Both the position numbers and the translations under genes were made by a program. Positions 36,996 to 53,648 of a stretch of DNA of 58,637 nucleotides are shown here, one piece after another. Origin of the DNA: Burkholderiaceae bacterium (GTDB lineage: Bacteria; Pseudomonadota; Gammaproteobacteria; Burkholderiales; Burkholderiaceae_C); NCBI GenBank assembly GCA_030654805.1, contig JAURWR010000030.1:1-58637 (forward strand), given 5' to 3'. The notes under the pieces are model-generated. The model saw only the letters and a list, made by a program, of their open reading frames with translations, had not been told where the DNA came from and did not search any database. The number at the start of each line of letters is the position of its first letter. Within the stretch, counting starts at the first letter, position 1.

Positions 36996-37945
36996 TGTCG
37001 CTTTCCTCACCGTCGTCCCTGTCCGGGGTGCTCAGCGGATCGGTCACCGCGTCGGCGTCGGGCGCCGCATCGTCGGCCATCGACACGCGTGCTCTTGCGG
37101 CATTGCGCAACTCCGCATCGCACGATCCGAAGGCCGCGATCAAGGAGACCGCGAAGCAGTTCGAGACGATGTTCATGCAGCAACTGATGAAGGGCATGCG
37201 CGATGCGCAGGCAGCCATGTCGTCGGGGCTGATGGAGAACTCGGCCACCAAGCTCGGCACCGAGATGCTCGACACCGAATATGCCAAGCAGATGAGCGGC
37301 GCGCCCGGTGGGCTGGCCGACGTGATTGCGCGGCAGCTCGAGCGGCAGATGGTGGGTTCAATGCCGGCCGATGCGGCCGGGGCCGTGCCGCGCGTTGCGC
37401 CGAATTCAGTGCCCGCCGCTGGCGTTCCGCTGTCGTCGCTGGGCCTGAAGTCCGGCGCCCGCCAGGTCGATTTCGTGCAACGGCACACCGACGCGGCACG
37501 TGCCGCCGAGGCGCAGACCGGCATCCCGGCGGGCTACATGGTCGCGCAGGCGGCCCACGAATCCGGTTGGGGCAAGCGCGAAATTCTCAACGCCAACGGG
37601 TCGAGCTCGTTCAACGTGTTCGGCATCAAGGCGGGCGCGAGCTGGAGCGGCCCGGTGGCCGAGGTGACCACCACCGAGTACGTCAACGGCGAGGCTCGCA
37701 AGGTGACGGCGAAATTCCGCTCGTACGACTCGTACGACGCGGCGTTCAGCGACTACGCCCGGCTGATGAAGGAGAGCCCGCGCTACAGCGGCGTGATGGC
37801 TCAGGCCAGCACCGGAACGGTCACCGCAGCGGGCTTTGCGCAGGGCCTGCAAAAGGCCGGCTACGCCACCGATCCGGCCTACGCCGACAAGCTGACCCGC
37901 GTCATCAACACCACGCTGCGCCTGCAGCGGGTGATGACGACTTGA
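36995..37945 (+). CDS. flgJ: Flagellar rod-capping muramidase FlgJ
   Basis: A 316-residue bifunctional protein. The N-terminal rod-scaffold domain (KETAKQFETMFMQQLMKGMRDAQ) caps the growing rod. The C-terminal glucosaminidase domain opens peptidoglycan for it, with catalytic Glu189 in AQAAHESGWGK, then SSFNVFGIKAG and FRSYDSYDAAFSDYARLM. Both domains are complete, unlike the short single-domain forms in some lineages. Confidence 0.96.
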   Translation: MSLSSPSSLSGVLSGSVTASASGAASSAIDTRALAALRNSASHDPKAAIKETAKQFETMFMQQLMKGMRDAQAAMSSGLMENSATKLGTEMLDTEYAKQMSGAPGGLADVIARQLERQMVGSMPADAAGAVPRVAPNSVPAAGVPLSSLGLKSGARQVDFVQRHTDAARAAEAQTGIPAGYMVAQAAHESGWGKREILNANGSSSFNVFGIKAGASWSGPVAEVTTTEYVNGEARKVTAKFRSYDSYDAAFSDYARLMKESPRYSGVMAQASTGTVTAAGFAQGLQKAGYATDPAYADKLTRVINTTLRLQRVMTT

Positions 37946-37977: not shown

Positions 37978-40017
37978 ATGGGAACCGGTGCATTGATGTC
38001 CCTGGGCGTGGGGGCCATGGCCGCCAGCTATGCCCAGCTGCAGACCACCAGCAACAACATCGCCAACGTCAACACCAAGGGGTACTCGCGCCAGGAAGCC
38101 CAGCTCGAGACCGCAGGTGGGCAATTCACGGGCGCCGGGTTCTTCGGCAAGGGCGTCAACGTGAAGACGGTGGCGCGTGCGCACGACGAGTTCCTGTCGC
38201 GTGAGGCCGCCCTGTCTCGTTCACTGGCTGCCGCTGACGGTGCGCGCAGCGATCAACTGACGCGGCTCGAGAAAGTGTTCGGCGTCGGCGAGGCCGGGCT
38301 GGGCTATGCCGCCGGCCAGTTGTTCAATTCGTTTGCCGACGTGGCCAGCAAGCCGCAAGACTCTTCGGCGAGGCAGGTGGTTCTGTCGCGAGCCGGCGAG
38401 CTGGCGGCTCGATTCACGACGGCCGCCGAACGAATCGACGATCTGCAGACTGGCGTGACACAAGACCTTCGCTCGTCGGTGGCCAAAGTCAACGACCTGA
38501 CGCAGCAGATCGCCACGCTGAACCAGCGTGTCACCGATGTGCGCGGACTGGGACAAGCCCCGAACGATCTGCTGGACCAGCGCGACCAGCTCGTCAGCGA
38601 TCTCAGTCAGTACGTTCAGGTGACCACGGTCGAAGCCGAGGACGGTTCTTTGTCGGTGTTCATGGGGGGGGGGCAGGCGCTGGTGCTGTCTTCCCACAAC
38701 ACGAAGTTGGCGGCCATGCCCGATCCCTACGACGCGTCGCGTGTCGTGATCGGCATCGAGACCCAGGCCGGCGATCGCCAGCTGCCGACGTCGCTGCTCA
38801 ATGGCGGTTCGATTTCCGGCCTGATTCATTTCCAGGCCGGCGACCTGACCGACGCCCGCAATCTGCTGGGCCAGATGGCGCTGTCGATCGGCTTGCAGGT
38901 CAACCAGCAGCAAAGCCTCGGTCTGGATCTGCTCGGTCAGACCGGCGCCGCGATGTTCCGCTTCGGATCGGCTTCCGGGTTGCCGGTGGTCGCGGCACAA
39001 GCCTCGTCGGCCAACACCGGCACCGGCAGCGTCTCGCTGACGCTGCAGGCACCGGCCACGCTGGATGCAGCCCTGGTCAGCGGCGTGCAGGCGAGCGACT
39101 ACGAGCTGCGCGCCGACGGCCTCGGCGGGTTCCAGATGTACCGACTCAACGGCGGGGCGATCGACCCGCAGTTTCCGGCGGTCGCCGTGGCCAACGGCGA
39201 CGTGGTCGAAGGCTTCAAGATCAGCATCGGCGGCGTGCCGGCGGCGGGTGACCGCTACCTGTTGCGGCCGGCGGGCAACGCGGCGCGCGACATGCGCCTG
39301 GACATGAGCAACCCGAAACTGATCGCCGCAGCCTCACCGCTGAGCGCAACGGCGGGCACGCTCAACCAGGGCACTGCGGCGGTGGCAGCGCTCAGCGCGG
39401 AGAGCACAGCCGCCGGTGCCCATCCCAACCTGCCCGCGACGTTGAAGTTTCAGGTCACCGCGACACCGGGCCAGTACACCTACACGTGGACGGACGGCGC
39501 CGGCACCAGCGCGGCCGCCGCCTGGGTGCCCGGCCAGTCCATCGACTACCCCGGAACCACGCCGACCAACGGCTTCCAGCTGAAGATCACCGGTGTGCCG
39601 GTGGCGGCCGATGCCAGCACCACGCCAGCGGTGGTGAGCGACACCTTCACCATCGCTCCCAACACCTACACGCTGGCCGACAACACCAATGCCAACGCGA
39701 TGCTGTCGCTGCGCGACACGCCGCTGGTCGGAACCATCTGGAACGGCGGCACCCTCCAGCCCGGCAACAGCGTGACCGACGCCTACGCCAGCATCCTCGC
39801 CAACGTCGGCGTGCGCGTGCAGAGCGCCAAGTCTGCGGCCACGCTGTCGGCGTCCGTCGCGGCCGAAGCCGAGCAGAACCGTTCCGGCAAGTCGGGCGTC
39901 AACCTCGACGAAGAGGCTGCGCGACTGATCCAGTACCAGCAGGCCTACCAGGCGGCAGCCAAGATGCTTCAGGTGGCGCAATCGGTGTTCGACACCCTGC
40001 TGCAGAGCGCCCGCTGA
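37978..40017 (+). CDS. flgK: Hook-filament junction protein FlgK (HAP1)
   Basis: A 679-residue junction protein, longer than enterobacterial FlgK (about 550). The extra length is in the variable central domain. N-terminus: MAASYAQLQTTSNNIANVNTKGYSRQEAQLE; also LLDQRDQLVSDLSQYVQVTT and MGGGQALVL. The C-terminal KSGVNLDEEAARLIQYQQAYQAAAKMLQVAQSVFDTLL is diagnostic. A long open frame in another phase across its 3' end (from 39486) is the upstream extension of flgL and not coding. Confidence 0.96.
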   Translation: MGTGALMSLGVGAMAASYAQLQTTSNNIANVNTKGYSRQEAQLETAGGQFTGAGFFGKGVNVKTVARAHDEFLSREAALSRSLAAADGARSDQLTRLEKVFGVGEAGLGYAAGQLFNSFADVASKPQDSSARQVVLSRAGELAARFTTAAERIDDLQTGVTQDLRSSVAKVNDLTQQIATLNQRVTDVRGLGQAPNDLLDQRDQLVSDLSQYVQVTTVEAEDGSLSVFMGGGQALVLSSHNTKLAAMPDPYDASRVVIGIETQAGDRQLPTSLLNGGSISGLIHFQAGDLTDARNLLGQMALSIGLQVNQQQSLGLDLLGQTGAAMFRFGSASGLPVVAAQASSANTGTGSVSLTLQAPATLDAALVSGVQASDYELRADGLGGFQMYRLNGGAIDPQFPAVAVANGDVVEGFKISIGGVPAAGDRYLLRPAGNAARDMRLDMSNPKLIAAASPLSATAGTLNQGTAAVAALSAESTAAGAHPNLPATLKFQVTATPGQYTYTWTDGAGTSAAAAWVPGQSIDYPGTTPTNGFQLKITGVPVAADASTTPAVVSDTFTIAPNTYTLADNTNANAMLSLRDTPLVGTIWNGGTLQPGNSVTDAYASILANVGVRVQSAKSAATLSASVAAEAEQNRSGKSGVNLDEEAARLIQYQQAYQAAAKMLQVAQSVFDTLLQSAR

Positions 40018-40055: not shown

Positions 40056-41294
40056 ATGCGCATCAGCACAGCCAACACCTACGAAGCGGCGATCGACAAC
40101 CTGCAGCGCCGGCAGGTCGAGATGAGCGACCAGCAGACGCGCATGACCAGCGGCAAGCGCGTTCTCAAGGCCAGCGACGACCCGGCCGCCGCATCACGTG
40201 CAGAGCGCGCGCTGGCCACCGAGATGCGCAGCGTGACCTCGCAGCGCAGCGTCGATGCCAGCAAGGCGCTCGCCACCCAGACCGAAAGTGCGCTCGGCGA
40301 TGCCGAGGAATTGCTTCAGCAGGTGCGCGAGGCCCTGGTCGCCTCGGGCAATGCGACGTTCTCCGATGGTGAGCGCAAGATCCAGGCGAACAAGCTGGCG
40401 AGCCTGCGGGAGGCGCTGTTCTCCGTGGCAAACCGGTCCGATGGCGCGGGCAGCTACCTGTTCGGTGGCCAGGGTTCGACCGAGCCTCCGTTCATCGACT
40501 TGCCGGCGCCGACCGGCGTGCAGTTCCGCGGCATCACCGGACAGCTGCTGACCGATGCCGATACCTTGCTTCCGCTGAGCACCGACGGTGCCGACGCGTG
40601 GTTGAACGCTCGCAGCGGCAATGGCGTGTTCGTGACCAGTTCGGCCACCAACAGCGTCACCGGTACGGCGGTGACGGGAGCCTGGTCCAACGCCGGCAGC
40701 GTGACCGACCCGTCATCGCTGTTTCCGGTCGCCGACACCGGCTACCGCATTCACTTCACCAGCGGCACGACCTACGACGTGGAGCGCTTTCCGCTGGCCA
40801 CGCCCGCCGTTGTAACGATCGAAAGCTCGGGCAACGCTTACCAGGACGGCCGAGCGATCCAGTTCCACGGCATGAGCGTCACCGTTTCGGGGTCGCCACT
40901 CAACGGCGACCAGTTCGAGATCCGGCCGTCGACGCCTTCCTTGAGCGTCTTCGGCATGCTCGATGACGCGATCTCCCATCTTCGTTTGACCAACCAGACC
41001 ACGGCCCAGCGCGCCCAGTCGACCGCCGACAGCCTGCGCGACGTCGATGCGGCGATGGGACCGCTGCGCTCGGCACGTTCTGCGGCGGGTGAAGTGTTGA
41101 ACCGCATCGACACCGAATCGGACCGCCTTTCGGCGCAGAAACTGAACGCGCAGACCGATCGGTCGAACGCCGAGGACCTCGACGCGGTGCAGGCGTACTC
41201 GGACTTCACCAACCAGCAGACCGGCTACGATGCTGCGCTGAAGTCATATTCGCTGGTCCAGAAGATGTCGCTGTTCCAGTACCTCAATCCGTGA
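40056..41294 (+). CDS. flgL: Hook-filament junction protein FlgL (HAP3)
   Basis: A 412-residue junction protein. MRISTANTYEAAIDNLQRRQVEMSDQQTRMTSGKRV and the C-terminal DLDAVQAYSDFTNQQTGYDAALKSYSLVQKMSLFQYLNP are the flagellin-like coiled-coil ends of FlgL. SYLFGGQGSTEPPF is a typical central block. ATG at 40056 follows the flgK stop by 38 nt. It is the last flagellar structural gene here. Confidence 0.96.
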   Translation: MRISTANTYEAAIDNLQRRQVEMSDQQTRMTSGKRVLKASDDPAAASRAERALATEMRSVTSQRSVDASKALATQTESALGDAEELLQQVREALVASGNATFSDGERKIQANKLASLREALFSVANRSDGAGSYLFGGQGSTEPPFIDLPAPTGVQFRGITGQLLTDADTLLPLSTDGADAWLNARSGNGVFVTSSATNSVTGTAVTGAWSNAGSVTDPSSLFPVADTGYRIHFTSGTTYDVERFPLATPAVVTIESSGNAYQDGRAIQFHGMSVTVSGSPLNGDQFEIRPSTPSLSVFGMLDDAISHLRLTNQTTAQRAQSTADSLRDVDAAMGPLRSARSAAGEVLNRIDTESDRLSAQKLNAQTDRSNAEDLDAVQAYSDFTNQQTGYDAALKSYSLVQKMSLFQYLNP

Positions 41295-41346
41295 CCGGTG
41301 CCGCAGGTTCTGCGCGGGCCCGGTTCTTCACTGCGTAGGAGTTGTT

Positions 41347-42552
41347 GTGTCGGACGAGATCCTGGGTCAGGTGGCGCTGGGCTATTCGGCCTTCATCGAT
41401 CGCAATCGGGCGGTGACAGCCACCCGCCTGACGGTGTTCCCGTTGAAGCCCGATCTGGTGCTCGACGCCGCGCAACTGCTGGAAGCGGTGGGCTCGGTGT
41501 GGCCGCCCGAAGGCGGACGCGTGTCGCTCAACGTCACCAGCGAGAGCCTGCTGCAAGACCTGCTGCGCTCGTCGCCCTCGCACAACCTGATGGTCGAGGT
41601 GCCGGCGTTCATGGCGGCGGACCCTGCCAACACCGATTCCATCGTCGCGCTGCACGCCCATGGCACGACCCTGATGCTCAAGGGACGCCCGCTGAGGGAT
41701 TTGCCGCGCGAGGTGCTGCCCTGCTTCAAGCAGTCCATCATCGACCTGTCCGACGACCGCCGCATCGCGACCGGTGGGGCCGTATCCGCCGGGGTCACGC
41801 GGAACATTGCGCACGTTCTGGCCGGCATCCATTCGGTGGCAGACATGGAGGGTGCGTTCGAGCGCGGGGCGGTAGCCGTCTTGGGCTGGCCGATCGGCGA
41901 CGAGGTCACCGAGCGGCCCAAGTCCTCTCGCGAGAAATCGACGCCGATTGATCTTCAGACCGTGGTCGAGCTGATGGGTCAGGTCGACCGGGAAGAGCCG
42001 GTGGAAAAGATCGAGAACACGCTCAAGCGGGATCCCTCGCTGGGCTTCAAGGTGCTGCGCTACATCAATTCGCCGGCTTTCGGCCTGTCGGTCGAGATCA
42101 GCTCGTTCAGCCACGCGGTCATGCTGCTCGGCTACCAGCGCCTCAAGCGCTGGCTCGCGCTGCTGCTGGCGACGGCAAGCAAGGAGCCGAACATGAAGGC
42201 GGCGATGTTCGCCTCCGTGCGTCGCGGGCTGCTGATGGAGGAACTGGCGCGCCACGTCGGCGATCAGGAAATGCGCAACGAGTTGTTCATCTGCGGCGTC
42301 TTCTCGCTGCTGGACCGCCTGTTCCAGCAGCCGTTGGCCGAGTTGCTGCGCACGGTGCCCGTGCCGCAACGGGTGCACGAAACCCTGGTCGACGGCACCG
42401 GACCGTATGCGCCGTATTTCCGGTTGGTCCAGGCCATCGAAGCCGAGTCGCTGTACGACTTTCGCGAGTGCGCGGAAGCGCTGATGATGGACGTGCGAGA
42501 AATCAACCGGGCCGAACTGCGTGCGTTGGCGGCGGCTGCCGACCTCGACTGA
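41347..42552 (+). CDS. YuxH-like signalling protein: degenerate EAL plus HDOD
   Basis: A 401-residue cytosolic protein. The N-terminal half is EAL-like (GYSAFIDRNRAVTATRLTVFP) but has no EAL motif or metal ligands, so it should not cleave c-di-GMP. The C-terminal half is an HDOD domain: VEKIENTLKRDPSLGFKVLRYINSPAFGLSVEISSFSHAVMLLGYQRLKRWLALLLATAS. The family includes CdgJ, a flagellar motility regulator in Vibrio. GTG start with TAGGAG upstream. It follows flgL after 52 nt and may be co-transcribed with the flagellar operon. Confidence 0.9.
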   Translation: MSDEILGQVALGYSAFIDRNRAVTATRLTVFPLKPDLVLDAAQLLEAVGSVWPPEGGRVSLNVTSESLLQDLLRSSPSHNLMVEVPAFMAADPANTDSIVALHAHGTTLMLKGRPLRDLPREVLPCFKQSIIDLSDDRRIATGGAVSAGVTRNIAHVLAGIHSVADMEGAFERGAVAVLGWPIGDEVTERPKSSREKSTPIDLQTVVELMGQVDREEPVEKIENTLKRDPSLGFKVLRYINSPAFGLSVEISSFSHAVMLLGYQRLKRWLALLLATASKEPNMKAAMFASVRRGLLMEELARHVGDQEMRNELFICGVFSLLDRLFQQPLAELLRTVPVPQRVHETLVDGTGPYAPYFRLVQAIEAESLYDFRECAEALMMDVREINRAELRALAAAADLD

Positions 42553-42629
42553 TCTGGATCGACGCTTTCTGTTGCGCGGGCCGGTGCGGCGCGCGATAGA
42601 TTCGCCGACATGACGACAGAAACCGCGCC

Positions 42630-45600
42630 GTGGTGACCTCGATGGATGGCAGCGCAAGCCTGCAATCGCTCGAACAGTTCTTCGATCACCTTTCCGACGG
42701 GGTGCTGCTGTTCGACCGTCGTGCGCTCGTGACCTTCGCCAACACCGCTGCGTTGAGGCGCCTGCCCGGTGTCGTCGACACCTCGGTTGCTCAGTGGGAA
42801 GGTGCATTGGGCGCCCCGCTGGTCGAATGGCTGCGGCACGCGATTGCCGCATCTCCCGGCGCGATGCGGGTGCCTGGTCAGGCGGCCGCCCGATCGGCGG
42901 CGGCGGCGCGTCGAACGGCGTCGCAGGCGCCGCCGCCGGCGGTCCTGCTCGACGGGCAAACGGCCGACGCGGCCTGGCAGTCCCTGGGCACCGGGTTGTA
43001 CGCGTTGCGCCTGCACTGGCGCGACAGCCAGGATCCCCGATCTGCCAGCGACGTTGTCGCAGCTGCAGATTCTGTTCGCGACACCAACCCGATCGCCGAC
43101 CGTGCACGGCGATCGGCTGCCGCGCTTCCGCCGACCATCGCCGGCCCGGTGATCGCCGAGCTGATGCAGGTGCTGTGGAACTCGCCATTTCCCGCGATGC
43201 TGCAAGACAGCCGGATGCGCATCGTCGATGTGAACCCGGCGTTCGCGTCCTTCAGCGGCTACGCGCGCGAACAATTGATCGGAAGTGATCCGATCGGCCT
43301 CGAACCTGAGGAGGACCGTGCGAGCAGTCTCGAATTGCGCGAACGCTGGCAGGATCCAGCGCGGCGCGATGCCGAGCCAGCGCTGGTCAGTCGCCGCATC
43401 GTTGCCGCCGACGGCCGCGAGCGCTGGTTTCGCGCCACCGGCAGTTCGCTGACCGATGAGAACGGTCGCATTTTCAAGATGTCGGTGCTGCAAGACAGCA
43501 CGGCCGAACACGTGGCTCGCGAACGCGCCGACCGTTCGGCACGCGAGATCGACGACTGGTTCGACCTCAGCCCGATTGGCATGGTGCTGTTCGACGAGGC
43601 CGGCCTGCTGGTGCGCACCAATCCGGCGTTCGATGCGCTGGCCGGCGTGGTGCCGACGGTGTTGTCCGACGCTTCGCCCGAACTGCGGCAGTTGCTGGGC
43701 TGGACCGATCACGGGCCGTCGCCCGCGCTGGAGCCGTCCGCCAAGCCGGTCGTTGCCCACGGCTGGCTGCCTCTGGCGCAGGGTGGGTTGCGGCGGTTGC
43801 GCTCGATCGTGCGCTGCTACACCACGCCGGGCGGCGCGCGCCGCCACATGGCGATCCTGGAGGATCGCAGCGCCGAGGAAGAGCGCGATCTGGCGCAGAT
43901 GCAGATCGGTGCGCTGATGGACACCGCCGGTGTCGGCCTGGCCACGTTTCAGGAGACTTCGGGGTGGGTGCGGCAACGCCAGGCACCGTCCGCTGCGGAG
44001 CCGGGCGTCGACGAGGCGGCGGTGCCGACATCGGCCGCGCTGCAATCGATCAGCCGCGACATCGTCGCCGACGAGTCGATGGCCGAATACGACGCGCTGC
44101 AGCAGGCCCTGCGCACGGCACAGCGCGCCGAGGTGCGCTACGCGATCCGCCATCCGAAACTGGGCCTGCGCTGGCTGCTGACCCGCGTCGAGCCGGCCAC
44201 GCTGGCCTCGGGCAAGCGCACCACGTCGGTGGTCACGCTCGACATCACCGAACAGCATCAGACCCAGCAGCGCAGCGAGCAGTTGCTGCGCGAGCTCACC
44301 ACCATCCTCGAAAGCACGTCGGCCGGCATCGCCTACATCCGAGGCGACGTGCTGGTGCGCTGCAACCGCCGCTTCGAGGCGATGCTCGGATTGCATTCGG
44401 TCGGGGTCGCCGGCAGCGGCATTCAGGAACTTTTCGGCAGCTCACCGCAGGGCCAGCGCATCGCCAGTGAGACGCTTCAGGCGTTGACCGCCGGGCTCAT
44501 CTTCGAGACCGAGTTCTCGATGGATCCCGGGGCCACCTTGACCGGTGAAGCGACTCACAACGGAAATGCAGCGTCAAATCCGACGCGCTGGTACGCGCTT
44601 TCCGTTCGGCGCACCGGCCCGGTGTCTGATCAGATCGAGGCGATCGCGGTGCTGTCCGACATCACCCGGTTGAAATCGCAACAGGTCGAACTGGAGCAGC
44701 TCGCGCGCGACCGCGAATTGATGTTCAGCCTGTCGGAGGTCGGCATCGCTTTCCTGCGCGACGGCGTGCTGCAGCGTGTCAACGACGCGCTGGCCCAGCT
44801 GGCTGGCTATCCGGCCGCCGAACTGCAGGGGCTGGCGTTGAGCTCGCTGTTTGCTGACGCCGACGAGCACGAACGCCTGACCGTGCAGGAGCAGAACGCG
44901 CTGCGCCAGCATGGCCGGTGGATCGGCGAGCGACAGCTTCATCAGCGCGACGGTCGGGTGGTGTGGGTGCAGGTCAGCACACGGCTGGTCGGCGACGACC
45001 CGTCGGGCGGTGTGATCGCGTCGTTCGTCAACGTCGATGCGCGGCACCGTGCCGAACACGCCGTGGCCTTGCAGGCCAACCGCACGCGCGCCATTCTGGA
45101 TTCGGTGCTCGTCGGCATCGTGACAGTCGGCCCACGCGGCATCGAGTGGATGAACCGCTCGGCCCGACGGATGTTCGGTGCCGATCTGGGCGACTTCATC
45201 GACCAGCCGATCAGCACGGTGGCGACACCCGAACCCGATCACCCGTTCCGGCGCACGCAGTACCTCGAGGACCTGATCGAAGGCGAGGCCGAGACCTTCG
45301 AGTGTCGCGTCAAGGCGCGCGACGGGCGCGAGTTCTGGGTCGTCGGCAACGCCGTCGTCACCGGCCGCGAGTCGCGCGGGCGCCAACTCACCTACGCCTT
45401 GCTCGACATCGAGCAGCGCCGCCAAGCCGAGGCGCGCATCGAGGAGGCTCAGGCCTCGCTGCAACGCATCATCGAGGCCGCGCCGATGGCAATCACCGTG
45501 CGCGACGCGCGCACGCTGCGCATCCTTCAGGCCAACGTGGTTGCCGCGCGGAGCATGGATCTGACGCCCGCGCAGATTGTCGGGCGCAGCCCCGAGGAAA

Positions 45601-46511
45601 TGTTCACTCCCGAGGAGGCCGCTCAGCGACGCCTCGACATGGAGAGTGCGCTGCGCGCGAGTGCGGTCACGCAGCGCGAGTACCGGATGACGGAGCAGGG
45701 CGAGGCACGGGTGTGGGACGCGCGCTACCTGCCGCTGGCTGCGCCGGGGCAGGCGCCGGACCAGTTGCTGATGGTCGCCACCGACGTGACCGAGCAGCGT
45801 GCGGCCGAGCAGGCCAAGTTCGATGCCGCCATCGCGCAGCGCGAAATGCTGGTCAAGGAAGTGCATCACCGCATCAAGAACAACCTGCAGGGCGTCGCCG
45901 GACTGCTGCAGCAGATCGGAACCCGCAAGCCCGAGATGGCGGCGGCGATGTCCGAGGTGGTCGGGCAGGTGCAGGCGATAGCCCAGGTCTACGGGTTGCA
46001 GGTCGGTGCGGGCGGACCGTTGCATGTCACGGGCGTTGTCGAGGCCATTGCCGGTTCGGTGCAGCGCACGTTCGGGCACCCGATCCGCTTTTCGGTGCAG
46101 GGGGAAGGCGCGGAATTGTGGGTGCTGCCCGAGGCGGAGTCGATTCCAATCGCCCTGACCCTCAACGAGTTGCTGACGAACGCGGTCAAGCACAGCCTGA
46201 TGCAGCATCGCGAAGCGCAAACCGCTGGCGACACCCTGGTGCCGGCAGTCGATTGCACGCTGATCTGCGACGACAGCAGCGTGCGCATCGTGATTCGCAA
46301 CCGCGCGCGCCTTCCCGACGGATTTAATCTGGCGCGCGTGCCAGGCGGTGTGTCGGGTCTCGGTCTGGTGCGCGCACTGCTGCCCAGGCGCTGCGCGAAG
46401 CTGACCATCGAGCCGGACCCAGATCAAGAACACGTCGTGGCCACTGTCTCGATCGGCGCTCCCGGGGTGGTGTTCACCGGACGCCGGACATCAGACGCGC
46501 CGATTCACTGA
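42630..46511 (+). CDS. Cytosolic multi-PAS sensor histidine kinase (HisKA_2 type)
   Basis: A 1293-residue kinase with no signal peptide or membrane segment. I count about eight PAS-like modules between residues 15 and 1060, for example FFDHLSDGVLLFDRRALVTFAN, FSLSEVGIAFLRDGVLQRVNDALAQLAGY and IIEAAPMAITVRDARTLRILQAN. The phosphorylation motif KEVHHRIKNNLQG (His at about 1080) is HisKA_2, followed by an ATPase domain (LTLNELLTNAVKHS, GGVSGLGLVRALL). Kinases of this class often pair with ANTAR response regulators, as with PdtaS-PdtaR; such a gene is next. GTG at 42630; ATG at 42642 is possible. Confidence 0.93.
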   Translation: MVTSMDGSASLQSLEQFFDHLSDGVLLFDRRALVTFANTAALRRLPGVVDTSVAQWEGALGAPLVEWLRHAIAASPGAMRVPGQAAARSAAAARRTASQAPPPAVLLDGQTADAAWQSLGTGLYALRLHWRDSQDPRSASDVVAAADSVRDTNPIADRARRSAAALPPTIAGPVIAELMQVLWNSPFPAMLQDSRMRIVDVNPAFASFSGYAREQLIGSDPIGLEPEEDRASSLELRERWQDPARRDAEPALVSRRIVAADGRERWFRATGSSLTDENGRIFKMSVLQDSTAEHVARERADRSAREIDDWFDLSPIGMVLFDEAGLLVRTNPAFDALAGVVPTVLSDASPELRQLLGWTDHGPSPALEPSAKPVVAHGWLPLAQGGLRRLRSIVRCYTTPGGARRHMAILEDRSAEEERDLAQMQIGALMDTAGVGLATFQETSGWVRQRQAPSAAEPGVDEAAVPTSAALQSISRDIVADESMAEYDALQQALRTAQRAEVRYAIRHPKLGLRWLLTRVEPATLASGKRTTSVVTLDITEQHQTQQRSEQLLRELTTILESTSAGIAYIRGDVLVRCNRRFEAMLGLHSVGVAGSGIQELFGSSPQGQRIASETLQALTAGLIFETEFSMDPGATLTGEATHNGNAASNPTRWYALSVRRTGPVSDQIEAIAVLSDITRLKSQQVELEQLARDRELMFSLSEVGIAFLRDGVLQRVNDALAQLAGYPAAELQGLALSSLFADADEHERLTVQEQNALRQHGRWIGERQLHQRDGRVVWVQVSTRLVGDDPSGGVIASFVNVDARHRAEHAVALQANRTRAILDSVLVGIVTVGPRGIEWMNRSARRMFGADLGDFIDQPISTVATPEPDHPFRRTQYLEDLIEGEAETFECRVKARDGREFWVVGNAVVTGRESRGRQLTYALLDIEQRRQAEARIEEAQASLQRIIEAAPMAITVRDARTLRILQANVVAARSMDLTPAQIVGRSPEEMFTPEEAAQRRLDMESALRASAVTQREYRMTEQGEARVWDARYLPLAAPGQAPDQLLMVATDVTEQRAAEQAKFDAAIAQREMLVKEVHHRIKNNLQGVAGLLQQIGTRKPEMAAAMSEVVGQVQAIAQVYGLQVGAGGPLHVTGVVEAIAGSVQRTFGHPIRFSVQGEGAELWVLPEAESIPIALTLNELLTNAVKHSLMQHREAQTAGDTLVPAVDCTLICDDSSVRIVIRNRARLPDGFNLARVPGGVSGLGLVRALLPRRCAKLTIEPDPDQEHVVATVSIGAPGVVFTGRRTSDAPIH

Positions 46512-46542
46512 CCTATTCGTTGGGATTTCGAGAGGTCTTGCC

Positions 46543-46569
46543 GGCGGTTTCGCTGTTCATGAGACCGCC
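46543..46569 (+). terminator. Hairpin between the kinase and ANTAR regulator genes
   Basis: GGCGGTTTC (46543-46551) pairs with GAGACCGCC (46561-46569), 9 bp with one G-T pair, loop 9 nt, followed by TTTC. GGTCT at 46534-46538 could instead pair with AGACC at 46562-46566, an alternative fold that would disrupt it. It may be a terminator or attenuator. Confidence 0.5.
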
Positions 46570-46667
46570 TTTCGGACAGAATCCGAGGCACCAGCCAAAG
46601 CGTCGCGTGCAGCGTCGGCTTCGTCGAACAGATTTCCAGAATCAACCCGGTCAGCAGGAGTACGCAG

Positions 46668-47312
46668 GTGGCAGTCGTGCAGGAACAGCGAGGTCAGAGC
46701 GGCAAGATTCTTGTCGTGGATGACGATCGTCTGGTGCTTGCCACGCTGGCGCACGGCCTGACCGAAGCAGGCTACGAGGTAATCGACGCCGACAACGGCG
46801 ACGACGCCATCCTGCTGGCGCGCGAGCACCGTCCCGACCTCGCGCTGCTCGACATCCGCATGGAGGGCATGAGCGGCTTCGACGTGGCCGCCTACCTGCG
46901 CGAGTACTGCAAGATGCCGTTCATGTTCTTGTCGGCCTTCTCCGACGACGACACGGTGCGGCAGGTGCATGAACTCGGCGCCGTTGATTACCTGGTGAAG
47001 CCGCTGGACATCGGGCACATCGTGCCGGCGGTTCAGGCGGTGTTCGCACGGCTGCGCGCGTCTTCAGTCGCCGCGACGGCCGCTGAAGCGCCTGCACAGC
47101 GGACGACCCCAGCCGTCGCGCCGCTCACTGCCTCGCTGCTGCCGGTCGAGGCGATGGCGGTCGGCGTATTGATGCATCGCTTCTCGCTTGCCCGCGCGGC
47201 GGCCTTCGACCGACTTCAACGCATGGCCACGGTCAACGGGCGTGCGACGGTCGACGAAGCCGAGCGGCTGCTGCAGGCGGTTGAACTGCTTTCCGGAACG
47301 GCCGAGATCTGA
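46668..47312 (+). CDS. Response regulator with ANTAR RNA-binding output domain
   Basis: A 214-residue regulator. The receiver (residues 12-130) has ILVVDDD, phospho-acceptor Asp62 in LALLDIRMEGMSG, and FLSAFSDDD with the Lys in YLVKPLD. After an Ala/Pro linker the C-terminal part (VGVLMHRFSLARAAAFDRLQRMATVNGRATVDEAERLL) has the spacing and helices of an ANTAR domain, which binds paired stem-loops in mRNA leaders and prevents termination. Likely partner of the multi-PAS kinase upstream. GTG start with AGGAG 7 nt before it. Confidence 0.9.
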   Translation: MAVVQEQRGQSGKILVVDDDRLVLATLAHGLTEAGYEVIDADNGDDAILLAREHRPDLALLDIRMEGMSGFDVAAYLREYCKMPFMFLSAFSDDDTVRQVHELGAVDYLVKPLDIGHIVPAVQAVFARLRASSVAATAAEAPAQRTTPAVAPLTASLLPVEAMAVGVLMHRFSLARAAAFDRLQRMATVNGRATVDEAERLLQAVELLSGTAEI

Positions 47313-47319
47313 TCGATCC

Positions 47320-47337
47320 GGGCGGCAGTCGCCGCCT
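47320..47337. terminator. Terminator-like hairpin between convergent genes
   Basis: GGCGGC (47321-47326) pairs with GCCGCC (47331-47336) around AGTC. It is placed between the stops of the ANTAR regulator and the minus-strand kinase. No strong T run on either side. Confidence 0.45.
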
Positions 47338-47346
47338 GTCCGCGCT

Positions 47347-48780
47347 TCAGAGCGACGGATTTCCGAGTGAGAAATGGAAGCTGGCGCCTTTGCCTACCTC
47401 GGACTCGGCCCACACCTCGCCGCCGTGCTTGTGCACGATGCGGCGCACCGACGCCAGGCCGACACCCGTGCCTTGAAACTCGGTGGCGCTGTGCAGGCGC
47501 TGAAACACGCCGAACAACCGATCGGCAAAGCGCATGTCGAATCCGGCCCCGTTGTCTCGCACCGTGAAGCTGGGCGTCATGGTGTCGGTACAGCGTTCGA
47601 ACCAGACCTGCGGAGAGGCACATTTGCCGGTGTATTTCCATGCATTGCCCAGCAGGTTTTCGAGCACCACCCGCAGCAGCGTCGGGTCGCCGTGCACCTG
47701 CATCCCCGGGTCGATACGCACCGTGACCGCATGTTGCGGCCATTGCCGGCGCAGGTCGTCGATCACGAAGCCGGCCAGCTGAGACAGATTGACCGGTTGC
47801 CGTGATACCGGCTTCGCCGTCAGCTGCGACAGCGCCAGCAGCGCGTCGATCATGCTGTTCATGCGCGCTGCGGCGCCCAGCACGCGGTCGAGGTGGTCGT
47901 TGCCGACGCGGTCGAGCAGCCGGCCGTAGTCTTCCTTGACGATCTTGGTGAAACCCTCGACCACCCGGATCGGCGCGCGCAGGTCGTGCGACACCGTGTA
48001 GCTGAAGGACTCCGCGTCCTGTTCGGCCGGTATCGCCAACGGGGTCAGCGACGGCATCGCAAGGACGTGGTCGATATCGACAGAAGAAGCGGCTGTTGCC
48101 GATGTGGGCACCGGCGTGGCCGAGCTGGCTGCGCCAGGTTGCTCACGCACGGTGCCCACGTGGCCGATGAAGGCGCCTCGCGCGTCGTGCAGCGGCAGTG
48201 CGCGCAGCTGCCCGAGACGCGCGCCGCCGTCGGCTGGGCGAAAGGCGATCAGCACATCCTCGGCCGGTTGCTGTGATTCCAGCCGCTGACGCAACGCAGC
48301 GTGTCCGCCGGTTCGGGGAGCTCCGGTGTCCGGATCGGTTCCGGTGAACAGAGTCCACACCGGTTGTGGGTCAGCGTTCTGCGGGACCAACGAGGGCGGT
48401 GCGACCACTCCCGCTGGTGGAATGAGGGAGACCAGGCGGTGTCGTCGGTCGGTGCGCCACTGCCACACGTCGAGCAGCCTACCCAGCGCCTCGCCCTGGG
48501 CTTGCCGCTGGCGCAGCTCGGCGGCTTCCTGTCGGCATCGCTCGGCCCGACGGTGCAGCGTGACGACCACCATCAGGGCCAGCAGGACAAAGCCGAGCCC
48601 CATGGCGAACCCCAATCCACTGGACATCGAACCTGCCGCGTTGCCGTTATCGGCCAACGCATGGCCCGACCAGCCAGCCAGGGTGACCGATGTGCACCAC
48701 ACGCCACATGCCGACCTGTACCCCGCAGAGGCACCGATCTGTCTGGCGGCTGACGTGTGCTGGCCGAGACCCCGATTCAT
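47347..48780 (-). CDS. Membrane sensor histidine kinase
   Basis: A 477-residue kinase. One clear transmembrane helix at about 54-75 (GLGFAMGLGFVLLALMVVVTL) follows a hydrophobic N-terminal stretch, and there is a coiled coil (RRAERCRQEAAELRQRQAQGEAL). A PAS-like region spans about 100-210. The HisKA motif is SYTVSHDLRAPIRVVEGF (His265). The ATPase has VLENLLGNAWKYTG, VRDNGAGFDM and GTGVGLASVRRIVHKHGG. It lacks a receiver domain, and its cognate regulator is not adjacent on the same strand. It diverges from the Hpt gene, which could belong to the same phosphorelay only via another receiver. Confidence 0.92.
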   Translation of the reverse strand: MNRGLGQHTSAARQIGASAGYRSACGVWCTSVTLAGWSGHALADNGNAAGSMSSGLGFAMGLGFVLLALMVVVTLHRRAERCRQEAAELRQRQAQGEALGRLLDVWQWRTDRRHRLVSLIPPAGVVAPPSLVPQNADPQPVWTLFTGTDPDTGAPRTGGHAALRQRLESQQPAEDVLIAFRPADGGARLGQLRALPLHDARGAFIGHVGTVREQPGAASSATPVPTSATAASSVDIDHVLAMPSLTPLAIPAEQDAESFSYTVSHDLRAPIRVVEGFTKIVKEDYGRLLDRVGNDHLDRVLGAAARMNSMIDALLALSQLTAKPVSRQPVNLSQLAGFVIDDLRRQWPQHAVTVRIDPGMQVHGDPTLLRVVLENLLGNAWKYTGKCASPQVWFERCTDTMTPSFTVRDNGAGFDMRFADRLFGVFQRLHSATEFQGTGVGLASVRRIVHKHGGEVWAESEVGKGASFHFSLGNPSL

Positions 48781-49156
48781 AGCGGCGGATTGTAGGCAGC
48801 GCCTGGACGCAGTCCGAAGGCAGGCTGGGCCAGGCCGAGTGACCGGCGATTCACGGGTGGTGCCCGGCGCGAATAAGCTGCGCATCTCTGCGAGAAACTC
48901 AAGTTGCAGGGCTGGCGGCCGATACCACGATCACGGTCGTCCCACCGCAGCGACTTCAGCCCGAACGGCCTTTTCAGATGCAAATCCTTTGGCAAGCCAT
49001 TCCGGTTCCCCCCCTGCCCGGCACGAATCCCTCGGATGACGGCGCGCGCGCCTGCATCGGCGGGGGTATCAGCCTTTCGAGGCACCCGGCGACTGAGGCA
49101 CACTCAGGCATGCGCGAAGAACCGCTGATCCCAGCCGTGTGTGCTGGCTTTTTCTG
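48781..49156. other. Divergent intergenic region, 376 bp
   Basis: It separates the minus-strand kinase from the Hpt gene. It contains the sigma-28-like promoter described at 48899-48925. I see no convincing small gene; the short open frames lack ribosome-binding sites. Confidence 0.5.
48899..48925 (+). promoter_or_regulatory. Sigma-28 (FliA) promoter upstream of the Hpt/GGDEF genes
   Basis: TCAAGTTG (48899-48906), 11 nt, GCCGATAC (48918-48925): 6/8 and 7/8 matches to TAAAGTTT-N11-GCCGATAA with exact spacing. The first gene downstream starts at 49157, leaving a leader of about 230 nt. Confidence 0.65.
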
Positions 49157-49618
49157 ATGACAACCGCACCGTTGTCCCCTCGTTCCTCCGCCGTCGACCC
49201 AGAATCGACGGGTGGTAGCTCTCAATGGCTGTCACCATCCGCGCGTGGTGTGTTGGACGATGGTGCTATTCGCCGATTGCGTGAACTCGACCCCACCGGA
49301 GAGAGCCATTTGCTGATGCGCGTATTCAACGCCTTCGAAACTTCGCTGAACCGGCTCTTGCCCCAGCTGGCACAGGCAAGGGATGCCGCCGACGCGTCGG
49401 GTGTGCGGTTGGTTGCGCACACGTTGAAGTCATCTTCGGCCACCGTTGGTGCACTGGAGTTGTCGCGCCTGTGCGCCGAGGTGGAGGTCCAGGCACGCGA
49501 AATGAGGCTCGCTGATGCAGCGGGCGGAATCGAGCAGATGCTGCTGGAGGCAGAGGCGGTTCGTATATCGCTGGGCGCACTTTCCCGCCGCTCGGACACC
49601 ATCGCGGGTGCTGCATGA
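49157..49618 (+). CDS. Hpt domain phosphotransfer protein
   Basis: A 153-residue histidine phosphotransfer protein. LVAHTLKSSSATVGALELSRLC carries the phospho-accepting His followed by the Lys-Ser pattern of Hpt domains. The surrounding helices match the four-helix bundle (GAIRRLRELDPTGESHLLMRVFNAFE). The N-terminal 35 residues are a disordered Ser/Pro-rich lead. Its stop overlaps the next gene by 4 nt (ATGA), tying it to the REC-GGDEF-EAL protein, the probable phosphate recipient. ATG at 49157 preferred. Confidence 0.92.
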   Translation: MTTAPLSPRSSAVDPESTGGSSQWLSPSARGVLDDGAIRRLRELDPTGESHLLMRVFNAFETSLNRLLPQLAQARDAADASGVRLVAHTLKSSSATVGALELSRLCAEVEVQAREMRLADAAGGIEQMLLEAEAVRISLGALSRRSDTIAGAA

Positions 49619-51876
49619 GCATCGATTCAAGTCTGTCTGCTGCGGACGACGTCACGGTCCAGCCACGCGTGCTGCTGGTCGACGACGATGAAGTCAACTT
49701 GCTGCTCACGTCGATCGCCTTGCGCGAGCGCGGATTCGTGATCACCGAGGCTTCCAGTGGCGAGCGCGCGCTGGAAATCCTCACCAGTTGGCAACCCGAT
49801 GTGGTGGTGCTCGACGCGCTGATGCCTGGCATGGATGGGTTCGAGACCTGCCGCCAGATGCGTCAGATGGCCGCTTGCGTGTCGCTGCCGGTCCTGATGC
49901 TGACGGGGCTCGACGACGACGCGTCGATCAACCGGGCGTACGAAGCCGGCGCCACCGATTTCTTCGTCAAATCCAACCAGTGGAGCCTGCTGGCGGGTCG
50001 CCTGCGCTACTTGCTGAGATCGTCGCGCACCCGCCTTGAACTCGAATTGAGCCAGAGTCGGCTGGCGCGTGCGCAGGATCTGGCGCGCATGGGCAGCTTC
50101 GACTGGCGCATCGGATCGCCGGCCCCGATGTTTTCGGCCGAAGCCTTGCGAGTGTTCCAGATGGAGCCCGGCACCATGCTGCCGTTTCGTGACCTGCTGC
50201 TCATGATGCCGAAGGAAGAACGGCGCGGGAAGCGTGCGCTCCTGGCTGAAACGCTGCAGAGCAAGGGGGGTCTGACTCGGGACATTCCGCTGGTGCTGGC
50301 CGATGGCATCGCGCACATCATTCACACCGAAGCTTCGCCCGAGTACAACGAACAGGGCCAGTTGATCGGCTATGCCGGCATCGTGCAGGACGTGACCGAC
50401 CGATGGAACGCCGAACACAAGATTCGCCAGCTCGCGAACTTCGATTCGCTGACCGGCCTGCCGAACCGAAACCAGCTGATCGAGCGAGCCGAGCGCGCCC
50501 TGGAAGCGGCACGCCGCATGGGCCATCAGGTCGGGCTGCTTCTGATCGACCTCGACCGATTCAAGGTCATCAATGACACGCTGGGCCACGGTGCCGGTGA
50601 CGAGTTGCTGATCGAGGTCGCCCGCCGCCTGCGGTCCTGCGTGCGCCACTCCGATCAGGTCACCGACAACCTGCTCGACTCGATGGGCACCCGGGCATTC
50701 CGCACGCTCGAAGCGATGTGCCGCCTCGGTGGTGACGAATTCGTCGCACTGCTGCCTGAAGTGATCGACGAGCATGACGCCGAGATCGTCGCCGCGCGCG
50801 TGCTTGAACAGATGCGTGCGCCGATTCATGTCGGTGGGCAGGAGTGCTTCGTCACCGCGTCGGTTGGCATCGCGCTGTTCCCTCGCGACGGCATCAACGT
50901 GGCCGACCTGATCCGCAACTCCGACGTGGCGATGTTCGCGGTCAAGGCCCAGGGCCGCAACGCTGCGACGGTCTACCGGCCGCAGCTGGCAGGCAAGGGC
51001 CGCGAGAAGCTCGAACTCGAAAGCGCGCTGCACAAGGCGATTGAGCGCAACGAACTGGTGCTGCATTACCAGCCGAAGATCGACGTGCGTGCTGCACGCA
51101 TGGTCGGTGTCGAGGCGCTGATGCGCTGGCAACGCGGCAACGTGCTGGTGCCGCCGGGCGACTTCATCCCGCTGGCCGAAGAAAGCGGTCTGATCCGGCC
51201 GATGAGCGAGTGGGCGATCCGGGAGGCGGCGCGTCAGGCCCGTGTCTGGCTCGACACCTTCGGTTTCACCGACTCGATCGCTGTCAACCTGCCCAGCCGC
51301 ATGTTCGACCGGGGCGACCTGGTCGAGACCATCCACGAGGCGGTGGTCCAGAACGGTGTGCCGCATCACTCTCTGGTGCTCGAGATCACCGAAAACTCCC
51401 TGATGAAGGACCTGCAGAGCGTCATCCCGTCGCTGCACCGGCTCAACGAGATCGGTGTCGAGATTTCGATCGATGACTTCGGCACCGGATACTCGTCGCT
51501 GGCCTACCTGACGACCTTGCCGATCAGTGAGCTGAAGATCGACCGCGGGTTCATCCGTGATCTGGGCATGACGCCACAAAGCTCGGCGGTGGTGACGGCC
51601 ATCATCGCGCTCGCGCGGTCTTTGGGTCTGCGCGTGATCGCCGAAGGCGTCGAGAACCTGCGCCAGATGGAGGTGCTGCACCGGTTGGGCTGCGGTGTGA
51701 TGCAAGGCTTCCTCTTCAGCAAGCCGCGGCCACCTGCGGAAATCCAGTCCTGGCTTGAGGAAACGGTGCTGCCCAGAAAGGCGCCGTGGATGGACATGGC
51801 TCCCGACGAGGTGTCCACCGAGCCTTCACGTTCCAGCATGGCGCGCCCGGCACGCACGCCCAACAATGCGGGCTGA
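49615..51876 (+). CDS. REC-PAS-GGDEF-EAL response regulator
   Basis: A 753-residue c-di-GMP enzyme. Receiver with Asp67 (VVVLDALMPGMDG) and TDFFVKS; PAS at about 145-265; GGDEF at 372-376; EAL at 500-502. RHSD (344-347) matches the I-site, but 24 residues instead of the usual 5 separate it from GGDEF, so a segment of about 19 residues has been inserted. IDDFGTGYSSLAYL, LEITENS, LKIDRGFI and IAEGVEN are intact, so phosphodiesterase activity is likely. It probably receives phosphate from the co-translated Hpt protein. Confidence 0.95.
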   Translation: MSIDSSLSAADDVTVQPRVLLVDDDEVNLLLTSIALRERGFVITEASSGERALEILTSWQPDVVVLDALMPGMDGFETCRQMRQMAACVSLPVLMLTGLDDDASINRAYEAGATDFFVKSNQWSLLAGRLRYLLRSSRTRLELELSQSRLARAQDLARMGSFDWRIGSPAPMFSAEALRVFQMEPGTMLPFRDLLLMMPKEERRGKRALLAETLQSKGGLTRDIPLVLADGIAHIIHTEASPEYNEQGQLIGYAGIVQDVTDRWNAEHKIRQLANFDSLTGLPNRNQLIERAERALEAARRMGHQVGLLLIDLDRFKVINDTLGHGAGDELLIEVARRLRSCVRHSDQVTDNLLDSMGTRAFRTLEAMCRLGGDEFVALLPEVIDEHDAEIVAARVLEQMRAPIHVGGQECFVTASVGIALFPRDGINVADLIRNSDVAMFAVKAQGRNAATVYRPQLAGKGREKLELESALHKAIERNELVLHYQPKIDVRAARMVGVEALMRWQRGNVLVPPGDFIPLAEESGLIRPMSEWAIREAARQARVWLDTFGFTDSIAVNLPSRMFDRGDLVETIHEAVVQNGVPHHSLVLEITENSLMKDLQSVIPSLHRLNEIGVEISIDDFGTGYSSLAYLTTLPISELKIDRGFIRDLGMTPQSSAVVTAIIALARSLGLRVIAEGVENLRQMEVLHRLGCGVMQGFLFSKPRPPAEIQSWLEETVLPRKAPWMDMAPDEVSTEPSRSSMARPARTPNNAG

Positions 51877-51890
51877 AATCACACTGAAAG

Positions 51891-53648
51891 ATGGGTAATC
51901 CGACCTCTGCTCCCAAAGGGAGCGCTGCTGCCGCAACAGGCGTGGCCGCTGCCGAGCCGACGTCCCAGCCCGACGGTCAACTCCCCGCCCAGCTCGCCAA
52001 GGCCGCATTGCGTCGGCTGGCGCTTGAAAAGCTCGAACCGACCCCGGAGAACTACGTCCGAGCGTATCAGCAGGAACAGGGCAAGACACCTGCCGGCGGG
52101 GACTCGCTCGCCGATCTGATCGAAAGCATCGTGCGCGGCATCGAGCGCGGCGGCAAGCAGTGGACGCTGGCTCGCAAGAAGGAGAGCCTGCAGCGCGTGC
52201 TCAGCGGCAGCCGTGGTGATGCCAATCGACTTCAGCAGCGCCTGCGCCAGCTGATCGGCAACTGGGACTCCGATTCCAGCCCCGGAACCAATCGCGACCT
52301 GGTCGATGAGGCTCCGACTGAGCCTGTCACTGCCTCTGCGGAACCCGAAACGGTGTCCAGCGAGGTCTTGGCTTCCGTGCTCGCGGTGCCCGAACCGGCC
52401 GAGGCGGATGAGGCGAAGGAAGCCTCGACGGAGGCAGCCGGCCGTGTTGTCGCCGCTTTCGGCCAGACCGTGGTGCGTGCGCTGCCGTTGGCCGAAACGA
52501 GCAATCGTGATCTGGCCGAGGCGATCACGCAGGCGTCGCAACGCATCCGGACCGAAGGCGCATGCGAGGCGAGTGCCGCCGAGGTCGAAGGCCTCTGTGA
52601 GCGTGCCGACTGGGTGCTGCAGCACCGCGAGCACCTGTTCGAGCAGATCAGCGGGCTGTGCCTGGAGTTGACCGCCAGCCTGACCGACCTGGCCGAGGAC
52701 GACAGCTGGGCGCAAGGCCAGTGCGACGCGATGAGGGTCACCGTCGAGGAAGGCCTGACCGGGCGCGGCGTCAAGTCGGTCAGCGAGTTGCTGCGCTCGA
52801 CCCGGGCGAAGCAGGCCGAATTGCGCGTCGAGCGCGATGCGGCCCGCGATGCGCTCAAGCAGATGATCAACCGCATGCTCAGCGAACTGGGTGAACTCGG
52901 TTCGCAGACCGGCCGTTTTCACGAGAGCGTCGGCCGCTATGCCGACGTGATCGAGCGTGCCGACACGCTCGAAAGTCTGGCCGGCGTCGTTCGCGAGATG
53001 GTCGAGGAAAGCCGCACCGTGCAGGGGCTGGTCGACCAGACCCAGCACCGCTTGCGCGAAGAACACAGCCGTGCCACGGGCCTGTCGGAGCGCGTGACCG
53101 AACTGGAAAGCGAACTGAAACGGCTGTCGAGCGAGGTCTCCACCGACCAGCTGACGCAGATCGCGAATCGGCGCGGCCTGCTCCAGGCCTTCGAGGTCGA
53201 ATGCTCGCGCCTGGAGCGTGCTCTTGCGGACGACCCTGGCGGCACCAGCGCGGCAGGTTTGGCGATTGGGCTGCTCGACATCGACAACTTCAAGCGCCTG
53301 AACGATGAACTCGGCCACAGCGCGGGCGACGAAGCGCTGAAGGCGCTGGCAGCCACGGTGAGCAAGACCCTGCGGCCGACCGATCTGGTCGCGCGCTACG
53401 GTGGCGAGGAGTTCGTGGTGCTGTTACCCGAGACGCCAGTCGACGAGGGCCAGCAGATCCTCACCCGCCTGCAGCGCTCGTTGACGGGCGGGCTGTTCAT
53501 GCACGAGCAGAAGCAGGTCTTTGTCACTTTCTCCGCCGGTGTCACCGCCTACCGCACCGGCGAGCGCATCGAAGATGCGCTCGAGCGAGCCGATCTGGCG
53601 CTGTACCAGGCCAAGCGCGCCGGCAAGAACCGGACCCTGATCGGCTGA
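51891..53648 (+). CDS. Cytosolic diguanylate cyclase with helical N-terminus
   Basis: A 585-residue protein. Residues 1-420 have no recognised sensor domain: an Ala-rich start, a Glu/Pro/Ala linker at about 135-175 and long coiled-coil helices (VRERADWV-like and RVTELESELKRLSSEV). The C-terminal GGDEF domain has the active variant GGEEF (504-508) and an intact I-site RPTD (495-498) five residues before it, so it should make c-di-GMP with product inhibition. It starts 14 nt after the previous stop, in the same operon. N-terminal similarity to other DGCs of this order is from memory. Confidence 0.92.
   Translation: MGNPTSAPKGSAAAATGVAAAEPTSQPDGQLPAQLAKAALRRLALEKLEPTPENYVRAYQQEQGKTPAGGDSLADLIESIVRGIERGGKQWTLARKKESLQRVLSGSRGDANRLQQRLRQLIGNWDSDSSPGTNRDLVDEAPTEPVTASAEPETVSSEVLASVLAVPEPAEADEAKEASTEAAGRVVAAFGQTVVRALPLAETSNRDLAEAITQASQRIRTEGACEASAAEVEGLCERADWVLQHREHLFEQISGLCLELTASLTDLAEDDSWAQGQCDAMRVTVEEGLTGRGVKSVSELLRSTRAKQAELRVERDAARDALKQMINRMLSELGELGSQTGRFHESVGRYADVIERADTLESLAGVVREMVEESRTVQGLVDQTQHRLREEHSRATGLSERVTELESELKRLSSEVSTDQLTQIANRRGLLQAFEVECSRLERALADDPGGTSAAGLAIGLLDIDNFKRLNDELGHSAGDEALKALAATVSKTLRPTDLVARYGGEEFVVLLPETPVDEGQQILTRLQRSLTGGLFMHEQKQVFVTFSAGVTAYRTGERIEDALERADLALYQAKRAGKNRTLIG

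Follow-up and report, generated by a model that had tools for sequence, protein, structure and literature searches.

The kinase and regulator pair

The 58,637-nucleotide contig JAURWR010000030.1 of a Burkholderiaceae bacterium (GenBank assembly GCA_030654805.1), referred to in full as the window, encodes a large multi-PAS sensor kinase and, adjoining it on the same strand, a response regulator with a receiver domain and a C-terminal domain of ANTAR descent. The 5' side of this pair is occupied by the end of a flagellar operon (flgJ, flgK and flgL) followed by an HDOD gene, and the 3' side by genes for a histidine kinase (HK), an Hpt phosphotransfer protein and the proteins of a cyclic di-GMP (c-di-GMP) module (Table 1). 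ANTAR domains tend to be called RNA antiterminators from a profile match, and the initial annotation had read the pair in this way, comparing it with PdtaS-PdtaR and EutW-EutV. The succession of a HisKA_2 kinase and a receiver-ANTAR-type regulator agrees with that comparison, but the residues through which EutV is known to contact RNA are replaced in the window regulator and across the Burkholderiales clade to which it belongs.

The receiver domain of the regulator is matched at 92.1 bits and its active-site residues are present. The ANTAR match (PF03861) expected for the C-terminal region was recovered at borderline strength and for part of the profile, scoring 25.4 bits within the whole protein, 28.5 bits with the C-terminal piece alone and 27.9 bits in the genome search against a cut-off of 27.3. 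It spans only profile positions 15-54 of 54; positions 1-14, which represent the coiled-coil helix leading into the domain, are unmatched, and a Pro/Ala linker is found instead. The match recurs at E<=0.001 in 14 of the 15 genomes of the genus (13 at positions 15-54 and one at 15-53), and this recurrence, together with the finding that the two best fold matches in the Protein Data Bank (PDB) are EutV chains, argues that it is not due to chance. The closest solved sequence is 1s8n (Rv1626/PdtaR, 84.3 bits), with both the receiver and the ANTAR domain aligned.

Homologous loci were taken as the best 80 of at least 538 loci in a scan, and the clade described here is a sample. It consists mostly of Sphaerotilaceae-type Burkholderiales, the named members among the matches listed being Roseateles, Pelomonas, Paucibacter, Rubrivivax, Ideonella and Aquabacterium, and in a tree of receiver sequences, which omits loci L086 and L104 and duplicates, its 69 rows are set apart from the rest by a branch supported at 100/99. 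This tree rests on few columns, with an unsettled bootstrap and a warning of long branches meeting at the clade join. The outgroup regulators come from other Beta- and Gammaproteobacteria; one of them, at locus L088, has the coil and matches the ANTAR profile at 54.4 bits over positions 2-54, compared with 25.4 bits for the window regulator.

Replacement of the known RNA interface

In the EutV:RNA structure the contacts are made by R142, K143, K147, K149, E160, Y164, R168, M172, N173, R175 and R177; binding is weakened 60-fold by E160A and 55-fold by Y164A and is abolished by M172A and by the triple mutant N173A/R175A/R177A, according to the portions of PMC8934654 that list these residues and mutants. 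We aligned the proteins by their core residues to compare these eleven positions. In EutV they spell R K K K E Y R M N R R, and in the window regulator L P M V R F Q T V G A, with none identical and one conservative (Phe at 164), or two if Gln at 168 is counted. Among the 70 clade rows, the window's own included, Glu160 is never retained and is replaced by Arg in every case; K149, M172 and R177 are each found in 0/70 and R175 in 3/70, and 55 rows have no EutV-identical contact at all. At these positions the genome's two other ANTAR proteins, at loci L001 and L002, have R K R K E Y R M D G R in one and R K R K E F R M E K R in the other, so the canonical contact set is kept elsewhere in the same cell. 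Contact-type residues occupy 10 or 11 of the 11 positions in the four canonical rows (EutV, PdtaR and these two proteins), and their mean number is 10.5 in the canonical rows, 5.5 in 18 outgroup rows and 1.5 in the clade. The rows exclude L034-L036 (duplicates of L013, L015 and L017), L104, which is unrelated, and L024, which was not extracted and is of the outgroup type when read by eye.

The L002 protein (contig C44) extends, in the same frame after its ANTAR domain, into a long C-terminal region where RQRMLSQR-type motifs recur; we take this region to resemble the methyl-accepting (PilJ-like) domains of type IV pili systems.

The initial annotation had the regulator acting on terminator hairpins in mRNA. 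A working antiterminator of the conventional kind, divergent in sequence and acting on hexaloop pairs in mRNA leaders, would account for the Pfam match, the paired HisKA_2 kinase, the ANTAR-type fold match, the receiver residues and the Phe at the stacking position, yet it now appears highly improbable, given that no contact is identical to EutV, that Glu160 is reversed to Arg and that the coiled coil is gone, when single or triple replacements suffice to abolish binding in EutV itself. A strict scan for dual stems of at least five pairs with six-base A1/G4 loops was applied to the window and to two 19-kb stretches around L001 and L002. It returned one match per strand of the window, where shuffled sequence gave means of 0.10 and 0.13; the two matches fall within listed reading frames and do not adjoin the flagellar leaders. 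None was found in the 19-kb stretches around the canonical ANTAR genes, which leaves the scan without a positive control and makes it weak evidence.

The outgroup regulators show a different pattern of replacement, in which Phe164, Arg168 and Arg172 are each present in 18/18 rows, Lys/Arg177 in 17/18, Arg175 in 14/18 and Arg160 in 13/18. The altered contacts, with Arg for Met172 and a basic loop, are shared by L022, L023, L025, L088-L097 and L099-L103, and the residue comparison suggests an RNA specificity different from that of EutV. These proteins also provide a case for a further alternative, in which the C-terminal domain still binds nucleic acid by a rewired surface and the family reads another RNA (or DNA) element, such as one in the leader of a downstream GGDEF/EAL gene, with the clade representing a further step. 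Arg160 is shared by most outgroup rows and all clade rows, and every clade row has Arg155; the GGDEF and/or EAL genes found downstream in 8/15 outgroup loci add small support. We consider this alternative unlikely. The clade has lost the basic loop and the coil by which two ANTAR domains pair, its former contact loop ranks with the most variable stretches of the domain, and its net charge over EutV positions 142-180 averages +1.2, as compared with +4.0 in the outgroup. The charge figures, and those for the linker below, come from an earlier row set that included the three duplicates and lacked L049, L061, L065, L095 and L100.

Retention of the fold

The coiled-coil helix of EutV is replaced in the clade by a linker with a proline fraction of 0.20 (70 rows), compared with 0.00 among canonical (4 rows) and outgroup (16 rows) regulators, and the corresponding residues 135-154 of the window regulator are modeled at a predicted local distance difference test score (pLDDT) below 50. 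The three helices that follow are predicted with block-mean pLDDT values of 86-94 over residues 161-210. In a Foldseek search with this model the two top matches are EutV chains (6ww6 and 6wsh) and the third is Rv1626, both domains being aligned. Within the ANTAR-like domain, A148, G150, M153, R155, A163 and L167 are each invariant (70/70) and L152 is found in 62/70. The ratio of nonsynonymous to synonymous substitution rates (dN/dS) comes to 0.19 for this domain, between the 0.065 of the receiver and the 0.53 of the linker, as estimated from the 14 genus sequences among 43 clade sequences obtained with a strict extraction pattern.

By these model- and alignment-based measures, the predicted three-helix ANTAR fold is kept under purifying selection and the C-terminal domain is not simply decaying. 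The invariant core, the low dN/dS and the confident helices, set against the replaced contacts, indicate that the fold has been kept while the known RNA face has not. If the domain were instead a decaying and functionless remnant, only the receiver would matter, as in a CheY- or Spo0F-like carrier; such an arrangement is not without parallel, as Caulobacter is reported to have, in MrrA, a single-domain regulator that integrates kinases (PMC5964349), and it would fit both the variable former RNA loop and a dN/dS above that of a canonical ANTAR domain. The six invariant positions, a dN/dS well under that of the linker and the three helices predicted with good confidence make it very doubtful.

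The multi-PAS kinase

In the PAS-containing part of the kinase, segments 3 and 4 of the eight scored give weak matches to the Pfam PAS profile (14.7 and 18.7 bits), and the HisKA_2 domain, matched at 37.1 bits, is the only one found in the whole genome. No membrane helix was detected in the kinase by hydropathy (top 19-residue mean, 1.32). The kinase can thus be upheld as a soluble, multi-PAS HisKA_2 protein, as first annotated. The accompanying remark that its number of PAS modules is unusually high does not stand, the number being ordinary for a family in which clade orthologues carry approximately 4 to 11 modules N-terminal to the His domain, as judged from length only in frames uncut by a contig end. 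The longest kinase frame of the set (L065, 5026-9933) encodes 1636 residues, or approximately eleven PAS modules by length.

We take H1080 (base 45867) to be the predicted phosphorylated histidine, on the basis of the HWE/HisKA_2 H-box. The catalytic and ATP-binding (CA) domain is barely matched by Pfam (HATPase_c 13.6 and HATPase_c_2 17.1 bits, under cut-off) and is modeled at high confidence by AlphaFold2; a PDB sequence search with the kinase gave no match at E<=1e-8. The G1-box Asp, which contacts adenine in this ATPase fold, is Asn in the window kinase (N1224, base 46299). In an alignment of 36 kinases selected from a larger set, the Asp is missing from the aligned position in 36/36 and is replaced by Asn in 31, although a few rows have an Asp in the adjoining column and the alignment there is not beyond doubt. 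All 36 kinases share the H-box His, the N-box Asn and, in the G2 box, one Gly and one Leu.

These features raise the alternative that the regulator is charged by the neighboring HK, the multi-PAS kinase being a pseudokinase or a phosphatase. The HK is strongly matched by HisKA and HATPase_c and is absent along with the pair from two relatives (see below), and the absent Asp and the subthreshold HATPase scores likewise speak for this reading. The invariant catalytic-box residues, the confidently modeled CA fold and the doubtful alignment at the G1 box speak the other way, and the occurrence of the Asn in outgroup kinases as well makes it a family trait rather than a sign of decay in the clade; on balance we find this alternative unlikely.

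Gene neighborhood

The features of the locus are collected in Table 1. No receiver was found by domain scan in either the multi-PAS kinase or the neighboring HK.

Table 1. Features at the kinase and regulator locus (window coordinates)
Feature	Position	Strand	Remarks
flgJ	36995-37945	+	FlgJ-type protein
flgK	37978-40017	+	FlgK-type protein
flgL	40056-41294	+	named from flagellin domains and position
HDOD protein	41347..42552	+	between flgL and kinase
Sensor kinase	42630..46511	+	1293 amino acids; approximately eight PAS modules, HisKA_2 dimerization and histidine phosphotransfer (DHp) domain, atypical HATPase
PAS-sized segments of kinase	42633..45821	+	eight; 6/8 above a Pfam PAS cut-off
DHp-CA core of kinase	45792..46508	+	AlphaFold2 mean pLDDT 91.9 over 45780-46508
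Response regulator	46668..47312	+	214 amino acids
Receiver domain of regulator	46701..47042	+	acidic pair, phospho-acceptor D62, Ser and Lys all present
Ala/Pro-rich linker of regulator	47043..47132	+	where the ANTAR coiled coil would be; model residues 135-154 at pLDDT <50
Degenerate ANTAR domain of regulator	47133..47306	+	predicted helices 159-172, 176-189, 194-213; Pfam match 47154-47273
Histidine kinase (HK; HisKA, HATPase_c)	47347..48885	-	one strongly hydrophobic segment; convergent with regulator
Hpt phosphotransfer protein	49139..49618	+	motif AHTLKSSSA
REC-GGDEF-EAL protein	49615..51876	+	GGDEF and EAL motifs both present
GGDEF protein	51891..53648	+	GGEEF motif

A kinase lies just upstream of the regulator in 50/52 clade loci and, as one of HisKA_2 type, in 13/15 outgroup loci that reach far enough. 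Among the 43 clade loci with sufficient upstream sequence, HDOD and flgL are each present in 37 and flgK in 36; downstream, HK is found in 43/46 (45/46 counting two overlapping matches), Hpt in 41/46, REC-GGDEF-EAL in 42/46 and GGDEF in 43/46. The position beside flagellar and c-di-GMP genes, already pointed out in the initial annotation, is therefore real and conserved. At the same orthologue thresholds none of these neighbors was found in the outgroup (HDOD and flgKL, 0/11; HK, Hpt, REC-GGDEF-EAL and GGDEF, 0/12). Six of the 43 loci have no flg genes in the approximately 10 kb read upstream, and all six keep HK, Hpt and the c-di-GMP genes downstream, which ties the pair more closely to the Hpt/GGDEF-EAL module.

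The idea that outgroup pairs are without c-di-GMP neighbors was dropped, as 8/15 loci (L088, L090-L093, L095, L097 and L101) have weaker GGDEF and/or EAL matches on the regulator's strand, 0.5-5.2 kb downstream of it, and 1/15 has one upstream; the downstream genes are possible targets of the outgroup regulators. The association of HisKA_2/ANTAR pairs with c-di-GMP may thus be older than the clade. If the outgroup association is real, what is specific to the clade is the flgKL-HDOD/HK/Hpt arrangement together with the loss of the RNA face.

Relatives that lack the pair provide a further view of the locus. An orthologue of the REC-GGDEF-EAL protein with at least 64% identity is present in 20 of 60 relatives, and 18 of these 20 also have the regulator. 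The two exceptions are G008, from the same genus, and G035, from the same family. The multi-PAS kinase gave no match in either at E<=1e-5, and a close orthologue of HK was likewise not found, the G008 matches being at most 34% identical and G035 giving none at E<=1e-25. In both genomes HDOD is followed directly by Hpt and REC-GGDEF-EAL (L144, 28-4162; L145, 3670-7360); G008 is a draft of 310 contigs, and its HDOD-Hpt junction lies inside one contig. As kinase, regulator and HK are missing together in both, we argue that the three form one functional unit.

In the region 41200-49700 no promoter-like sites were found (0.6 in shuffled sequence), and terminator-like sites numbered 5 (4.6 in shuffled sequence).

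A proposed protein-contact output

We favor the reading that the window encodes an ANTAR-derived regulator which is without the canonical RNA-binding face and whose output, in the Hpt/c-di-GMP module, is through contacts with proteins, and from the sequence comparisons we would give it a probability of roughly 0.55. The pair would descend from a HisKA_2 kinase and ANTAR regulator that have been built into a flagellar/c-di-GMP locus. From their pairing and active-site residues, the cytosolic multi-PAS kinase would integrate signals and phosphorylate the regulator at D62. The C-terminal domain of the regulator keeps the predicted ANTAR fold and, as the residue comparison shows, has lost the interface for A1/G4 hexaloops, and as this interface is gone, the regulator most likely does not carry out mRNA antitermination of the known type. 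With the known RNA interface absent, the likeliest output would be a phosphorylation-dependent contact with proteins of the block, the most probable targets being the adjacent HK and the Hpt to REC-GGDEF-EAL branch, and the final effect would be on the level of c-di-GMP and hence on motility. In one form of this proposal the regulator would be a phosphorelay intermediate, passing phosphate from the kinase through its receiver to Hpt; since neither kinase has a receiver of its own, that of the regulator is the one within the kinase/regulator/HK block able to feed Hpt.

Several observations weigh against this proposal. The partner contacted by the regulator is predicted from gene order and residues. 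Hpt and REC-GGDEF-EAL persist without the block in G008 and G035, and at L039, a locus of the clade, the pair is accompanied by flg genes, with no HK, Hpt or REC-GGDEF-EAL within the 10 kb downstream. The loss of residues is a loss of the known interface rather than of all RNA binding: the invariant Arg155 and Arg160 (70/70 each) could make a new basic face, the window regulator keeps an aromatic residue (Phe) at the G4-stacking position, where Phe, Trp or His occur in 15/70 rows, and its Gln168 is also that of PdtaR. The structural matches span both domains with a root mean square deviation of 14-16 A, the domains being placed differently, and the domain has a dN/dS of 0.167 as compared with 0.066 for the canonical ANTAR domain in the same eight genomes.

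More broadly, a lineage of Burkholderiales with the pair placed between flgKL-HDOD and Hpt/REC-GGDEF-EAL may have exapted an ANTAR RNA-binding regulator into a protein-signaling element, the interface being lost while the fold was selected, possibly as a relay coupling two kinases to c-di-GMP. We hold this wider view tentatively, at slightly less than even odds. If the clade does keep the fold without the contact residues, annotation as ANTAR can mislead, and the clade would supply natural variants of the interface. In a group of Burkholderiales, the locus also offers a testable link among a cytosolic kinase with many PAS modules, c-di-GMP turnover and the end of the flg operon.

Comparison with known systems

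The regulator shares its receiver and ANTAR fold with EutV of the EutW-EutV system of Enterococcus faecalis, its best fold match, and differs from it in the absence of the contact residues and coiled coil and in the flagellar/c-di-GMP neighborhood. In the mycobacterial PdtaS-PdtaR system, PdtaS is the soluble HisKA_2-type kinase partner of PdtaR (Rv1626); PdtaR keeps contact-type residues at 10/11 positions, unlike the window regulator. ANTAR descent is also common to NasR, NasT and AmiR of Proteobacteria, which keep the RNA interface, as do the two other ANTAR proteins of this genome, of which L001 presumably resembles NasT. The receiver-driven, protein-contact output proposed here is that of Spo0F and MrrA, which are single-domain regulators and phosphorelay carriers, in contrast to the window regulator with its conserved ANTAR-type domain still attached. 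NasR senses nitrate via its own NIT domain, and it has been proposed that ANTAR domains are not specialized, their RNA-binding activity being merely employed differently (both from PMC7496416). Among the matches listed in the open-licence literature, as judged by titles and the starts of abstracts, we found no description of this circuit or of an ANTAR regulator deaf to RNA.

On the 3' side of the c-di-GMP genes, the protein encoded at 53691-54476 of the window has a Mrr-type restriction endonuclease domain and a GRF zinc-finger-like match of 21.2 bits, below the cut-off for that profile.

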